A stretch of DNA of 64,000 nucleotides from Prosthecobacter debontii. GTDB taxonomy: Bacteria; Verrucomicrobiota; Verrucomicrobiia; Verrucomicrobiales; Akkermansiaceae. The first letter of the stretch is position 1, and each line of letters opens with the position of its first letter. Positions 18,215 through 24,007 of the stretch are shown piece by piece. The stretch spans positions 1 to 64,000 of the forward strand of contig CAMAXN010000006.1 of NCBI GenBank assembly GCA_945862245.1, given 5' to 3'. The position numbers were made by a program, and so were the translations under genes. The notes beneath the pieces were generated by a model that did no database searches, had not been told where the DNA came from, and saw only the letters and a program-made list of their open reading frames with translations.

Positions 18215-18766
18215 CTAACGATCTGGCACGAAAAGCACCTGCCACTCGCCGTCCTTGCGGTAGATAAGTGCGATAATTGCGCAAGGTTCGCTGCCATCAT
18301 AAGAAAAAAATTTACCGCCTTCGAAACAGACGGACATGCCGTCCGTGGGGAGATCCGCCGTGGCGTCCGGCTGGATTTCCAAGGAGCCGTCCATGCCTGT
18401 GAGTTTCGCGGGTTCAGTGGAGAGGTTGAAGGCCCGCAGCGTCCAACTTCCCTCGATGGGCTTTCCGGGGATGAGGGTCCACCGGAATCCTTTTGTGCGG
18501 GGCGAGAGTACCGCGATGTTTATCTCGGCAGTGGCGGGGATTTTAAGCGATGGTATCTTGTCATCGCCCGTTGAGCTTATGAGGGCTGGCTTCTCGGGCA
18601 ATACGAAATTGCCGGTAGTGCCACCATGCGGAAGTTCCACGTTCTGTTTCGTCCCTGCGCATGAGATTTGGAGACCGACGGGATCCGGCAAGCCGAGCTG
18701 GACGATGTTGAGATCGCCCGCAAGGGCTGAGACGGCAAGTGTGAGATAAAGAGGAATTTGCTTCAT
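18215..18766 (-). CDS. Exported protein 2 of the pseudopilin cassette
   Basis: A 183-residue protein with a signal peptide (IPLYLTLAVSALA). The mature part is beta-rich with no known catalytic motif. Its start (GDLNIVQLGLPDPVGLQI) resembles the start of the preceding exported protein (GFLNIVNLIPGKIPADVTI), so the two may be distant paralogues. Its ATG overlaps the stop of that gene by 4 bases. It is the last gene of the six-gene operon. Three Cys residues are present; no lipobox. Function unknown. Confidence 0.72.
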   Translation of the reverse strand: MKQIPLYLTLAVSALAGDLNIVQLGLPDPVGLQISCAGTKQNVELPHGGTTGNFVLPEKPALISSTGDDKIPSLKIPATAEINIAVLSPRTKGFRWTLIPGKPIEGSWTLRAFNLSTEPAKLTGMDGSLEIQPDATADLPTDGMSVCFEGGKFFSYDGSEPCAIIALIYRKDGEWQVLFVPDR

Positions 18767-19470
18767 GGATTCTCTTTGATTTTATCTTTTTCCATCCAAG
18801 GTGGGACGGACTGCGTGCCGGCGCGGGTGAATGCGGTGACATATTCGCCGGTGGGGTTGGTTCCAACGAATAGGTAAAACGAGCCGGTCTCCGAGCTTCC
18901 GGTCGCGTGCCCGATGGTCTTGCCGTTGCGCAGGATGTCGAAAGGGGCCCCCGACCACTTGGGGATATCGATGGACTCAAAAGGTTTGGTCTCGATCCGA
19001 TTGGGGCCGAGCTGGAAGTGGCTTTCCTCTGGGCAGGTGGAAATGAAAGTCAGCGCGAAACCTCTTCCGTCGAAGGCAGGGAAGCTACGGATGCGGATCT
19101 TCGGCGGATACGGGGTGCCGTCCTTTTTTTTGCGATTGTCGGGCTGGAGATAGATCGCGATTACATTCGCGACCCCATCGACCAGCTCAATCTGACCAGA
19201 AGTCTTGTCGATGATAATTTTTGTATCCTCGGGCTGGTCGAGCTCAATCGTGATCGGCTTGCCGCCCACGGGCACCATGAACCAGCCGGTTGCGGAGCCA
19301 GCAACGAGTCCGCCGGGCATGAGTTCCTTGCCCGCGATGGTTACATCGGCGGGGATCTTGCCGGGGATGAGGTTTACGATGTTGAGGAAGCCCAGACCAT
19401 CGCCTTCCTGCGCGGAAAGCGGGAGGATGAGGCTGAACAAGGCGAGCAGCGTCCTAAAAAGAGTTTTCAT
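18763..19470 (-). CDS. Exported protein 1 of the pseudopilin cassette
   Basis: A 235-residue protein with a signal peptide (MKTLFRTLLALFSLILPLSA). The mature region is rich in beta strands and Gly/Pro turns. It contains a repeated theme of strand pairs (VPVGGKPITIEL, IIIDKTSGQIELV, VIAIYLQ) that looks like a binding or structural domain rather than an enzyme. The ATG at 19470 lies inside the end of the GspK-like gene (17-base overlap), and the stop overlaps the next gene by 4 bases. I chose this start because of the signal peptide; the longer open frame is the reverse phase of the upstream gene. Family not recognised. Confidence 0.75.
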   Translation of the reverse strand: MKTLFRTLLALFSLILPLSAQEGDGLGFLNIVNLIPGKIPADVTIAGKELMPGGLVAGSATGWFMVPVGGKPITIELDQPEDTKIIIDKTSGQIELVDGVANVIAIYLQPDNRKKKDGTPYPPKIRIRSFPAFDGRGFALTFISTCPEESHFQLGPNRIETKPFESIDIPKWSGAPFDILRNGKTIGHATGSSETGSFYLFVGTNPTGEYVTAFTRAGTQSVPPWMEKDKIKENP

Positions 19471-22081
19471 AAAGCTTGGTGAGGGTAACTTTACCACCGG
19501 GTATGACGAGGCCGGTGGCATCGCGCTCCGGTTCGATGGTGTAATGATATTCGCGGCTGGCACGGCCAATGAGCTTACCCTGTTTGTCGAGAGCCTCTCC
19601 GGCGACGACGATGCGGAATGTCTTGGAACCGAAGGTGACAAGATCCATGACCTTGCGGAAGAACTCTTCGCGACCCGCGTCATCCCACTCGAGCAAGTCA
19701 ACCGCCGGATCAACGACCACCGGGGCGTTTTCAAAAAGCTGGATGTTTCCGAAGAACGGCGTGTGGACGGAGTTCGCGGGATCGCGCGTGACGAGAGGTT
19801 GCTTGCGGAGGTTGTTGAGATCGGAAACGGCGCGGAGCGGGCTGGCGTTGCGATGGGCGAGCACCTGATCCGCGAAGATGTCTCCGAGTTCCTTGGTCTT
19901 TTTCGGCTTCACTCCCGGAGCCGCCGGATCGTCATCGAGGATGATACCAGCAACTAGGGAACGGAGCACCTCGCGCGGGGCGGTGTTGATATTGATGCGC
20001 GGGTAGTCCGGTTCAGTTGCGGGCAGGGAAAAGATATCGAGCAACTGCGCGGCCCGCAGGCCGTCCTTATCGAAGGGCACGAACTCCGGGCGGCCGATTG
20101 CCAGGGTGTAGCCGCCGCCGGAGCGTTTATCAGCGACTCCTCCGGCGGTCTCAACGCGCGTCCATTGTGCTGGATCGAAAATATGGCCCATCTCGCCGAG
20201 CGAAGCGTAGGTTCCGGAGTTTGAAATAAAGGCAGGCGCCAAGGTTGGCTGGTTAGGTGGGAAAAGCCTGCGCGGCACGGGTGGAGCTCCTGTTGATTTA
20301 AGGATGATTTGCGTGGTGGTGGGAATACGTGCGTCAGTGCCTGATTCGATACCTGCGGTGGAGTTCGAACCGCGGTCTGCCCAATTTTCCAGACGAACTT
20401 CGCGATATGTCGAGGTGGCGGCGATCTTGCGTTTCAGAGCCCGTCCACCCCAGTTGCTGTTCTCGCTGTAAGTGTTGGCGAAAACCTTGTTGTTGATATA
20501 CCAGGACGCCCTAGGATCACCCGGTTGGCCGATGCTCCAGTCATGCGCCGGAGAGCCGTTGCCTTTCCATTTCACGTTGGATAATCCCGGCCTGAGGTTG
20601 CCGTCGGTGCGCTCGACGCCGCCGCGCGCCGTGTCGATTAGCTTGCCGTTCCATTTCAACAGGAAATTATTTTCTGTGACGGCGATGTTGATGTTTCTGA
20701 CGGGGTTAACGAAGATCAGTTCGGAGGCGGGGAAGGCTCCCTGGGGAAATGTGTAGGTGCGCTCGCCTATGGAGAGGACTGAGTAGCCGTTCGGCGGAAT
20801 GGTGACGGCTTTCACCGGAAAAGTGACTTCGGAGAACTGCCTGTTGCCGACCAACGGGATGGAGATCGTGTGCTTGTTCACGTTGGTGAACTCGATGTTT
20901 CCCGAGATGGTTTGCTGGCTGGGATTCCACAGTTCGATAAAGGTTTCCACCTTGATGGAGATGGAGGTGGCGCTACCGCTGATCCACTCGTAGCGGTCGA
21001 AGAGCTCGTTGACAAAGGGGTAGGAATCCACGCCGCGATATCCGCTGCCGGTGGTGGCGTCGCTGTCCGTATCGGCATAGTCGATGATGGATGCCGCGAT
21101 GGTTTTGGAGTAGTCCTCCGACGCTAGGAATGCGCCCTTGCGGTTCTCGAAAAGCGGCAGCTGGAGCTTGATGTGGCTGGCGATCTTCGAGACGTCCTTG
21201 TCCTTGACCAAGGTATTAAGATCCGGTGCGAGTTTCCCGGCATCAACGTATCCGAAGCCATGCGGGATGACTTTTGCGGCGGGGATGGGCTGGGGGATTT
21301 TGTGGAAATGAATGTTTGGCTCGATGCGCTTGGTTTGGTCTGTGGTGAGCACGGAGCGCAGCGAAGCGTTGGTCCGCAGATTGGCGCGTGTGGCGACGAG
21401 CTTCGGAGGCATCACGGGGCTTGCGGCGAGAGGATCGAAGATGGTTGCATAGGCCATCTCCGCAACGGTTTTCCCTTCCGCACGGGCAAGTGTGCCTGCG
21501 TTTTTCCCATCTATTCTCCCGCTAATATCCTCAATCCAAAATGCATAGCGCATGTCATATCCGTTCGGGTTGGTGGAGGGGACATCGACCCATTTTGCGC
21601 GCGGGATGTTCTGATCGTGTTCGGTGGTGCGGCCAATCTGGGAGGCCCCAGCAACATATGCGGAAAGCTGGCTTATAAGCGGCCTGGTATCGATGCGAAC
21701 GCTGCCGAGTGCGCTTTCGCTTTGGCTGCTAAACAGGGGGATGCCGCGCCATGCGCCGTTTTCGAAGATTGCCCCGTAAGTGAAAAACTGTTCGCGGAAT
21801 CCAAGCGGCCTGTCGCTGGCGGCGAGGGTGGCCTTTACGGGATCCTCGATGCGGAAGACAAGTGTGTCATCGCGGCCAGCTATTTCCGAGAGCGAAGCGA
21901 GCGCCACGGCCAAGCCGGACTCGACGGCGAGATCGGCGCGGGTAGCGTCCGAGTAGGAGCGGGCGGTTTTGCGCTCTAGGGAAATAACGGAAAGCAGGCC
22001 GACGAGAAGCAGTGTGAGGCCGGCGACCGCGAGGATCGTCATCGGCAGGGCGAAGCCTTTTCTGTGGGAGCAGTGCGTCAT
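19454..22081 (-). CDS. GspK-like pseudopilin, Verru_Chthon cassette protein A type
   Basis: An 875-residue protein. The N-terminus is pseudopilin-like: a basic leader ending in KG, then FALPMTILAVAGLTLLLVGL. Position 5 of the mature protein is Met where major pilins have Glu. Absence of Glu5 is the hallmark of GspK, the minor pseudopilin that caps the type II pseudopilus. After the helix comes a large exported region with a GspK-like run (INTAPREVLRSLVAG and later FADQVLAHRNASPL). Such long proteins with a pilin-type leader are annotated in Verrucomicrobia as Verru_Chthon cassette protein A. Its ATG overlaps the stop of the GspJ-like gene by 4 bases. Confidence 0.83.
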   Translation of the reverse strand: MTHCSHRKGFALPMTILAVAGLTLLLVGLLSVISLERKTARSYSDATRADLAVESGLAVALASLSEIAGRDDTLVFRIEDPVKATLAASDRPLGFREQFFTYGAIFENGAWRGIPLFSSQSESALGSVRIDTRPLISQLSAYVAGASQIGRTTEHDQNIPRAKWVDVPSTNPNGYDMRYAFWIEDISGRIDGKNAGTLARAEGKTVAEMAYATIFDPLAASPVMPPKLVATRANLRTNASLRSVLTTDQTKRIEPNIHFHKIPQPIPAAKVIPHGFGYVDAGKLAPDLNTLVKDKDVSKIASHIKLQLPLFENRKGAFLASEDYSKTIAASIIDYADTDSDATTGSGYRGVDSYPFVNELFDRYEWISGSATSISIKVETFIELWNPSQQTISGNIEFTNVNKHTISIPLVGNRQFSEVTFPVKAVTIPPNGYSVLSIGERTYTFPQGAFPASELIFVNPVRNINIAVTENNFLLKWNGKLIDTARGGVERTDGNLRPGLSNVKWKGNGSPAHDWSIGQPGDPRASWYINNKVFANTYSENSNWGGRALKRKIAATSTYREVRLENWADRGSNSTAGIESGTDARIPTTTQIILKSTGAPPVPRRLFPPNQPTLAPAFISNSGTYASLGEMGHIFDPAQWTRVETAGGVADKRSGGGYTLAIGRPEFVPFDKDGLRAAQLLDIFSLPATEPDYPRININTAPREVLRSLVAGIILDDDPAAPGVKPKKTKELGDIFADQVLAHRNASPLRAVSDLNNLRKQPLVTRDPANSVHTPFFGNIQLFENAPVVVDPAVDLLEWDDAGREEFFRKVMDLVTFGSKTFRIVVAGEALDKQGKLIGRASREYHYTIEPERDATGLVIPGGKVTLTKLYENSF

Positions 22082-22818
22082 TTCGCGATGGCAATGGTAC
22101 AGGTAAAGGTGCGGATGAACTGTTTTTCATTCTCGCGTGGTGCGGAGGCGAGGCGATCCCACTCCGCACGCGTCTTGTAACGCTGGGCGGTGGAGTCGTC
22201 GATGAAACGAATAGTGACTTCAATCACGGAAGGATTTTGGGGCGAGGTGGCGGTCCAATCCGTCAGAAACGGTGGCGAGCCAGAGTAAAAGCGTGGCTTG
22301 GCAATGAAGCCGAGGACGTTCGCGACGATGGGTTCTTCGAGCGCGGGGTCGGCAGCGGGGAAGGCAGGCGTGCCGGGGGGTTCGAGAAAAGTTTGGGTGA
22401 GCGCCGGGTTGCGGGCGGCGCGGAAGAGCTTGGGGGATACGGTGCTGGTCGTGTCCTGCGAGAAGGCGACGCGGTAGGAGACGAGGTTCAGGTCGCCGGG
22501 CTTGGCGGCCTGCTGCTCGTCGGAGGAAATGGCCCGGACGAAGGCGATTTTATCCGAGGCCTCGACGACACCGCTGCTGGTCGATTTTTCATGTATCATC
22601 GGTGTGCCGGGGAGCCGGGTGGAAAGCTCGCGCCCGAAGAACTGGATGAAAGCGCGGGCCTGCGAGATCGTGTTCACCGCGCGTACGGTGCGCGTGTAGC
22701 TGTCGGTGGACTGGCCGACCAATGAAAACAGCGCGAGCATTATGATCGAGGTGATGGCCATGGCGATGAGCAGCTCGACCATGGTTAAGCCGCGCGGGTA
22801 TGTACGGGAAATTTTCAC
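22078..22818 (-). CDS. GspJ-like pseudopilin, Verru_Chthon cassette protein C type
   Basis: A 246-residue protein with a class III prepilin leader: YPRG then LTMVELLIAMAITSIIMLAL, with Glu at mature position 5 and a long hydrophobic helix. The following VGQSTDSYTRTVRAV and AFIQFFGRELSTRLPG resemble the early part of GspJ-type minor pseudopilins. It is the third gene of the cassette (order D-B-C-A), overlapping both neighbours by 4 bases (ATGA). It should be cleaved by a prepilin peptidase of the PilD type, which is not encoded in this window. Confidence 0.83.
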   Translation of the reverse strand: MKISRTYPRGLTMVELLIAMAITSIIMLALFSLVGQSTDSYTRTVRAVNTISQARAFIQFFGRELSTRLPGTPMIHEKSTSSGVVEASDKIAFVRAISSDEQQAAKPGDLNLVSYRVAFSQDTTSTVSPKLFRAARNPALTQTFLEPPGTPAFPAADPALEEPIVANVLGFIAKPRFYSGSPPFLTDWTATSPQNPSVIEVTIRFIDDSTAQRYKTRAEWDRLASAPRENEKQFIRTFTCTIAIAK

Positions 22819-23342
22819 AGGATGCCTTGGCGCGGACTGATGATCTGGTAGCGGAGGTCGCTGCGCTTGGCGGCGGGAGCCTTGGCGGGATGGAGGACGC
22901 GGATGGTGAGCAGGGAAAGGGTGTCGGGGCCGGCCGCGAGGTTGGGCGGGCGGTGCGCCTCGCCATGGACGGCGACGATGTAGCTGGCGTTGGGGATTTT
23001 GCTCGGGCCGGTGAGATCCGCGGCGGATCCTTTCACCAGGAAATTTCCCTCCGAATCATAGGCGAGGATTTCAGGTGCGGTCGCGGGCGCGAAAGCGGGA
23101 AAAGCCAGTGCCGCGCCGAACGAGGATGCGGGCGCAGGAACCGACCAAGCAGAGATGATTTCCCGCTGCACCTCGCGGGCAAGCCAGGACGAGCGGGTGT
23201 CGGCCTCGGCGCTGAGCCGGGAGCTGTTCGCGGAACCAGTCGCAGCAAGGATGAGGGGAACCACGAAGGCCACCACGCCCAGCGCGATGACCACTTCCGA
23301 GAGGGTCATACCGCGTTTCTGGGGCTTTCCGGTAAGTTTCAT
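22815..23342 (-). CDS. GspI-like pseudopilin, Verru_Chthon cassette protein B type
   Basis: A 175-residue protein with the leader KPQKRG followed by MTLSEVVIALGVVAFVVPLI (Glu5 present). The next part, SSWLAREVQREIISAW, resembles the region of GspI-like pseudopilins after the helix. A long upstream open frame exists in the same phase, but it is antisense or out-of-phase noise: the true ATG at 23342 overlaps the TGA of the preceding pseudopilin gene by one base. The downstream overlap with the GspJ-like gene is 4 bases. Confidence 0.83.
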   Translation of the reverse strand: MKLTGKPQKRGMTLSEVVIALGVVAFVVPLILAATGSANSSRLSAEADTRSSWLAREVQREIISAWSVPAPASSFGAALAFPAFAPATAPEILAYDSEGNFLVKGSAADLTGPSKIPNASYIVAVHGEAHRPPNLAAGPDTLSLLTIRVLHPAKAPAAKRSDLRYQIISPRQGIL

Positions 23343-24007
23343 CAGGGCTGGATGGTTCGGGTTCGGCCGGTGAGGCGGTTGACTTGGAGTAGTTCGAAGA
23401 CCGGCTTGCCGTTTGTTTTCTCGGTCAGCGAGAGCGAGTTGCCGCTCTTTTTGGCGCGGGCGATGACGATGTTCGTTTCCGAGGAGGGCAGGACGATCTG
23501 GCCGTTCGGTGCGAATACGATGAGATGGCAGGTGACGGCCTTGCCCTTGTAGTTTGTGAGCAGGGTTTCCGCCGCATCCACGATGGTGGGCTTGGGTGAG
23601 GAAACCAAGGAGGCGGGCAGGAAATGGAAATTGCCCGGCAGGGTTTCCCAGCGCTGGAGCTGCTTCTCGACTCCGCCCGCATCCTTGACGGGCTCGTAAA
23701 CCGCGCTGTTTTTCACGACCTCGAACAGCGAGATCGCCCGCACGCCGAGGTCGCCGCCGGTGGCAAGGACGGGTATCGCGACGGCAGTGGGGGAGCCCGA
23801 GGCGATGGCGTGGGCGCGCGCGCGCTGGAACTGACCCTTGATGATTTCCCGCGAGGCCTGGCGCGCGCTGTTTGCAGGATCGGAAAAAACTGGGACGGCC
23901 ACTGCGATCAGCAATGCCATGATCGCTATCACTGCCAATAGCTCGACGAGGCTGAAGCCCGATAAACCTCGGCGGTGCTTGTTCTTTCTGTTTGTGGCGT
24001 TTTGCAT
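23342..24007 (-). CDS. GspH-like pseudopilin, Verru_Chthon cassette protein D type
   Basis: A 221-residue protein with a type IV pilin leader: basic stretch (NRKNKHRRGLSG) then FSLVELLAVIAIMALLIAVA, Glu5 present. The following AVPVFSDPANSARQASREI fits GspH/FimT-like minor pilins, and the C-terminal domain is beta-rich. An in-frame GTG at 24034 is an alternative start. It is the first gene of a six-gene operon that runs to 18215 with overlapping junctions throughout. The upstream 110 bases separate it from the dus gene, which is on the same strand but reads away after a gap, so a promoter should be near 24010-24100. Confidence 0.83.
   Translation of the reverse strand: MQNATNRKNKHRRGLSGFSLVELLAVIAIMALLIAVAVPVFSDPANSARQASREIIKGQFQRARAHAIASGSPTAVAIPVLATGGDLGVRAISLFEVVKNSAVYEPVKDAGGVEKQLQRWETLPGNFHFLPASLVSSPKPTIVDAAETLLTNYKGKAVTCHLIVFAPNGQIVLPSSETNIVIARAKKSGNSLSLTEKTNGKPVFELLQVNRLTGRTRTIQP

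Follow-up and report, generated by a model that had tools for sequence, protein, structure and literature searches.

The giant prepilin A encoded in the window (the whole stretch of 64,000 nucleotides of Prosthecobacter debontii DNA that was analysed) is strictly tied to a small exported partner, P5, and this tie is the new element of the locus. We searched 145 genomes of the window's family with profiles, and counted the matches without correction for kinship. P5 was matched in 46 of these genomes, and in 46 of 46 it was found only with a window-type A or its fragment. Both genes belong to a group of six overlapping genes on the minus strand, which runs from 24007 down to 18215 in the order D-B-C-A-P5-P6 (Table 1). 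In the explanation that we favour, with moderate confidence, the products of this operon form an alternative tip (priming) complex on a type IV filament, together with its dedicated exported partner or partners.

The gene coordinates agreed exactly with the overlapping six-gene operon described in the earlier note, with junction overlaps of 1, 4, 4, 17 and 4 nt along the operon. The N-termini of D, B, C and A carry class III prepilin leaders, and Glu5 is kept in D, B and C and absent in A, just as had been claimed. P5 and P6 have signal-peptide-like N-termini and lack a lipobox, which is in line with the two exported proteins expected at the operon end. A simple pattern scan gave no promoter or terminator signals above shuffled sequence. 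The order D-B-C-A with P5 behind recurs in more than 30 other genomes, from several genera of the family and from other families too, and the 17-nt overlap was identical at every intact junction read. The arrangement is therefore not due to chance.

Table 1. Genes of the operon (positions in the window) and pilus or secretion machine genes on the contigs of the same genome
Feature	Location	Strand	Remarks
D, GspH/FimU-like minor prepilin	23342..24007	-	221 aa; ATG start; leader SG^FSLVE
B, GspI/PilV-like minor prepilin	22815..23342	-	175 aa; leader RG^MTLSE
C, GspJ/PilW-like minor prepilin	22078..22818	-	246 aa; GTG start; leader RG^LTMVE
A, giant GspK/PilX-like prepilin	19454..22081	-	875 aa; leader KG^FALPM; no Glu5
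P5, exported partner	18763..19470	-	235 aa; predicted signal peptide
P6, second exported partner	18215..18766	-	183 aa; predicted signal peptide
A stop/P5 start overlap	19454..19470	-	17 nt (ATGAAAACTCTTTTTAG); P5 start codon inside the A 3' end
T2SS cluster	contig 5		GspD plus its own G-H-I-J-K
GspE/F-like pair	contig 6, about 71.5-74.9 kb		
PilA/PilB/PilC genes	contig 3		
PilT-like genes and one prepilin peptidase (PilD)	contig 49		
PilM and secretin	contig 22		

The association of P5 with A was found in both directions. Forty-five of the P5-bearing genomes carry a window-type A, and the 46th (G053) is an apparent exception in which D-B-C are present and the A gene is broken at a contig end. 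P5 was in turn matched in 45 of the 49 genomes with A (Fisher p about 1e-31, kinship ignored). A occurs without a P5 match in G001, where the contig ends inside A, and in G117, where a different exported protein takes the place of P5. The same was seen in G017 and G004 (L126 and L127; genus g5, genomes of 1.5-1.6 Mb), in which window-type A stands alone without D, B, C and P5. These two genomes have different exported proteins behind A and no GspG over the cut-off. Beyond this family, window-type A was found in a second family of the order and, as a weak match, in one more family of the class (G296); by A identity (80-82%), the closest named relatives are MAGs called Prosthecobacter debontii.

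The distance from the start of P5 to the last base of the A stop codon was exactly 17 nt at 25 of 25 intact junctions read, and the same offset was observed in G202 and G342 of the second family and in G117. For genus g12, profile coordinates, which do not resolve the junction base by base, point to slightly shorter overlaps of 11-14 nt. In genus g11, eight genomes have the P5-P6 pair unlinked from the cassette: seven carry it on a different contig, and in G051 the two are about 70 kb apart. The pair and the cassette are nevertheless both retained in all eight, and the six of these genomes that were read no longer have the ATG at the A end. That the pair persists even when unlinked is a good indication that the partner and the cassette act together.

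In hhalign, P5 and P6 match each other at 97%; they are homologues and make up one exported superfamily, which has no name in Pfam or NCBIfam. P6 travels with P5 in 15 loci. PEGA (best 1e-4, matched by 12 of 20 P5-family members) and DUF4397 (best 6e-3) were rejected as names for P5 because the matches are too weak, and they suggest that the P5 family may be a beta-sandwich. PF05567 (PilY1) matched neither P5 nor P6. It also matched nothing in a search of the whole genome, but this second result is uninformative, as control genomes were equally silent.

The four prepilins had been read as a GspH-I-J-K-like set. HMM searches bore this out for D and A, which gave significant GspH and GspK matches; C looks GspJ-like, B is only weakly GspI-like, and all four remained under the equivalog cut-offs. 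D matched TIGR01708 (GspH) at 7.2e-7 (29.4 bits, under the 80-bit cut-off). D and C passed the N_methyl cut-off, and B fell short of it (17.8 bits versus 21.2); A instead gave a weak PilX_N (PF14341) match of 14.6 bits, short of the cut-off of 25.5. C reached 12.6 bits with GspJ, under the cut-off of 64.85. B alone was weak (XpsI 0.024; GspI 0.09, 13.2 bits against a cut-off of 44.35), and XpsI (GspI) was matched by 10 of 17 of its relatives, with a best value of 8.1e-7.

For A, NF037980 (GspK) was matched at 1.4e-7 (31.3 bits, under the cut-off of 130), and it was also matched by 17 of 17 A relatives. The Pfam T2SSK model PF03934 matched residues 696-720 only, at 24.2 bits, which is exactly its gathering cut-off of 24.2; 9 of 17 relatives matched it at E 0.1. 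GspK-like motifs lie near residues 334-355 and 696-712 of A, and the stretch of about 300 aa between them is unassigned. A D-Y-A-D motif, similar to D-W-[IV]-D of GspK, is present in 24 of 24 A relatives; in the window A, an N-I-N-T-A motif follows some 360 residues past D-Y-A-D. From these motifs we infer that A may be a GspK-like protein carrying a large insertion.

For each T2SS pseudopilin (G, H, I, J and K), a profile was built from 21 loci of the family and compared with the cassette profiles by hhalign. The best partners were H for D (97%), J for C (95%) and K for A (61%, the sole pairing for A above 5%). B was ambiguous between J, H and I, with the longest alignment to I. When the N-terminal helix was removed, the ectodomain-only profiles showed nothing significant against the T2SS pseudopilins. 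The prepilin assignments therefore rest mostly on the N-terminal helix and, for A, on the GspK model. The A and P5 profiles had no match among PDB sequences, and AlphaFold single-chain models had a pLDDT of 30 for A (3-row alignment) and 34 for P5 (2-row alignment), too low for either model to be used.

A match of the four genes to the Verru_Chthon cassette proteins D, B, C and A had also been proposed, and this claim failed at all four curated cut-offs. D matched TIGR02596 (Verru_Chthon D) over its whole length at 6.9e-7, and C matched TIGR02599 (Verru_Chthon C) at 9.9e-7, confined to the first 57 positions. Among the relatives of D, 15 of 17 match Verru_Chthon D and 14 match GspH. C relatives hit models of the J/PilW type, with 18 of 18 matching PRK10557 and TIGR02599. 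All four window proteins missed the curated cut-offs (29.5 bits against 70 for D, 28.3 against 256.5 for C and 16.6 against 332.3 for A with TIGR02600), and B gave no match to TIGR02598 (Verru_Chthon B). The two over-cutoff cassettes that were examined have the orders A-B-C-D (L183 in G027) and B-C-D-A (L182 in G053), and no P5-like partner gene was found in either. By distant similarity, detectable for D, C and A, the window encodes the same four kinds of protein as Verru_Chthon A-D (TIGR02600, TIGR02598, TIGR02599, TIGR02596). In contrast, its scores are below the cut-offs, its order is D-B-C-A-P5(-P6), and an exported partner is present. Because the cut-offs are missed and the order is different, the window cassette is, judged from its sequence, a distinct sister type ordered D-B-C-A-P5(-P6) rather than a member by the curated definition. 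No mention of the Verru_Chthon families was found in the literature searched.

The genome (2.57 Mb, 83 contigs, about 95% complete) was surveyed for machine genes, and those without a family match were named from sequence and position. The earlier note's statement that there is no secretion machine holds for the operon, whereas both T2SS and T4P machine genes were found in the genome. The survey recovered GspD, the GspE/F-like pair and PilD, as well as PilA, PilB, PilC, PilT and PilM of a T4P machine, and secretins beyond the T2SS GspD are also present. The T2SS genes sit outside the operon, elsewhere in the genome, with a separate G-H-I-J-K set; a penicillin-binding-protein 1A-like gene directly adjoins the T2SS gspG-K cluster (L031:15419-17788). 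The suggestion of a self-contained tip driven from elsewhere thus gained a motor elsewhere in the genome but met a T2SS that has its own H-I-J-K. For that reason, the window set would be an extra or alternative tip and not the only one.

The survey for further cassettes in the same genome found two more. One is a second D-B-C-A cassette on contig 32 (L034:1015-7393), followed by an exported protein of another kind (about 280-300 aa). The other is a D-B-C set without an adjoining A on contig 2 (L033:4182-6597), which may borrow an A encoded elsewhere.

PilM is present in 145 of 145 family genomes and window-type cassettes in about a third, so the cassettes are not required for T4P as such. GspG scored over the cut-off in 45 of 49 A-bearing genomes versus 55 of 96 others. 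Naming the motor by the presence of GspG or PilM was rejected, since PilM is universal and GspG follows kinship. By our own estimate, the T4P has an even chance of being the motor used by the cassette, and the chance of the T2SS is somewhat lower.

Two known systems can be compared with the operon. It resembles the T2SS GspH-I-J-K set in gene order, in the prepilin leaders, in the absence of Glu5 from the K-like protein only, and in the GspK-type motifs of A. It differs in lacking GspC-G, L, M and N, in the size of A (875 aa versus about 310 aa for the family's GspK), in scores below all equivalog cut-offs, in the exported partners behind the prepilins, and in the separate T2SS set of the genome. 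The other system is the minor pilins of Myxococcus xanthus, which has three FimU-PilV-PilW-PilX plus PilY1 clusters in one genome; PilY1 requires PilX and is located at the tip together with the pilins (PMC7541494). The authors considered PilY1 an analogue of T2SS substrates and suggested that tips made with the three sets differ in their properties (PMC7541494). The missing Glu5 had been taken as a mark of GspK. A does lack it, but it does not single out GspK because M. xanthus PilX is also without Glu5 (PMC7541494). A FimU-PilV-PilW-PilX set with an exported tip protein therefore fits as well as H-I-J-K. The window operon is like these clusters in its four minor prepilins plus an exported protein, in the several sets per genome that share one machine, and in the possible extra periplasmic factor, for which TfcP, encoded in M. 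xanthus minor-pilin cluster 1, is the example, a periplasmic helper that stabilises PilY1 (PMC8833165). It is different in that its partners are small (183-235 aa) and have no PilY1 match, and in that the giant is the K/X-like pilin in the window but PilY1 in the T4P clusters.

If the operon does encode an alternative tip, the prepilin peptidase would cleave the leaders of D, B, C and A, and the four proteins would assemble in the inner membrane with A on top; GspK is on top of the T2SS tip complex (PMC6211770). P5 and P6 would leave the cytoplasm through Sec, and after folding in the periplasm they would attach to the large outer part of A, in the way that PilX is capped by PilY1 or GspK is met by a T2SS substrate. 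By this analogy, P5/P6 may cap A or be carried on it. Either the T4P or the T2SS motor would extend the filament with the complex at its tip, which would be shown at, or pushed through, the outer membrane. The genome supplies the peptidase, ATPases, platforms and secretins for such a tip. Against it stand the H/I/J/K homology, which lies mostly in the N-terminal helix, and G004 and G017, in which A occurs without D-B-C-P5.

The presence of one partner per A, the overlapping genes and the retention of the partner when unlinked would also be expected if P5 and P6 stayed in the cell as periplasmic chaperones or assembly factors dedicated to the giant A, and TfcP gives a precedent of a periplasmic helper from a minor-pilin cluster (PMC8833165). 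We regard this as rather unlikely, since the partners of paralogous cassettes are very divergent (12-43% identity), which is more like recognition or cargo proteins, and since many genomes retain P5 as well as P6. P5 and P6 could also be substrates that are secreted to the exterior by a T2SS with this special tip instead of its own H-I-J-K. GspK is the closest match of A, the T2SS is present in the genome, GspG is more frequent in A-bearing genomes, and GspK has been proposed to contact substrates (PMC7541494, PMC6211770). The GspG link is confounded by kinship, with genus g3 (probably Akkermansia) lacking both, and the T2SS already has its own K, which makes this explanation improbable. A private H-I-J-K set is, to our knowledge, not normal for known T2SS substrates, and this also counts against it.

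It is very doubtful that the prepilins form no filament tip and, after processing, serve as anchors in the inner membrane or at the surface that keep A and its partners in the envelope. Such a role would suit an operon without a major pilin, the A that stands alone without D-B-C in genus g5, and the lack of adjoining D-B-C at most paralogous A genes. On the other hand, the full H-I-J-K-like set, with Glu5 in three proteins but not in the fourth, is the exact pattern of a tip complex.

The family genomes contain further A-like prepilins of 1100-1400 aa, which were sampled in 20 regions from six genomes plus L034 and L074. A signal-peptide protein was found directly behind 23 of 25 paralogous A genes versus 121 of 567 background genes, by a crude signal test and with cassette genes included in the background loci. 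The pairing of giant A proteins with an exported partner is thus general. Pfam and NCBIfam had no covering model for the paralogous partners. A profile of eight of them matched the P6 family in hhalign at 96% over 188 columns and P5 weakly, at 19%. Tips built with the paralogous pairs would differ in specificity.

What a type IV filament binds or exports is determined by its minor pilins, and we know of few dedicated tip partners outside PilY1. Our results suggest a swappable, custom tip for a bacterial fibre. We put forward, tentatively, that Verrucomicrobiota possess an expanded tip system in which a genome encodes several giant GspK-like tip pilins and every one of them has an obligate partner of its own from the P5/P6 superfamily, so that one pilus or T2SS engine could present or deliver many tip cargoes. 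If the strict pairing of a giant K-like pilin with an exported family, in several copies per genome, is true, it would explain the role of widespread unstudied Verrucomicrobiota proteins and provide a simple system in which to study how a single machine selects one tip over another.

Several loci showed variations around P5. In G202, a tandem pair of P5 genes lies behind one A (L176:7636-9279, minus strand). In G098 (L053, L084), stops were reported inside the P5 match, yet an open P5 frame of 221 aa is present, and the stops are probably at the match edge. In genera g12 and g16 (L121, L123, L124, L125), the gene directly after P5 encodes a metallophosphatase-like protein with a Tat signal (..FHTTDLHGHI..) and is possibly a further member of the operon.
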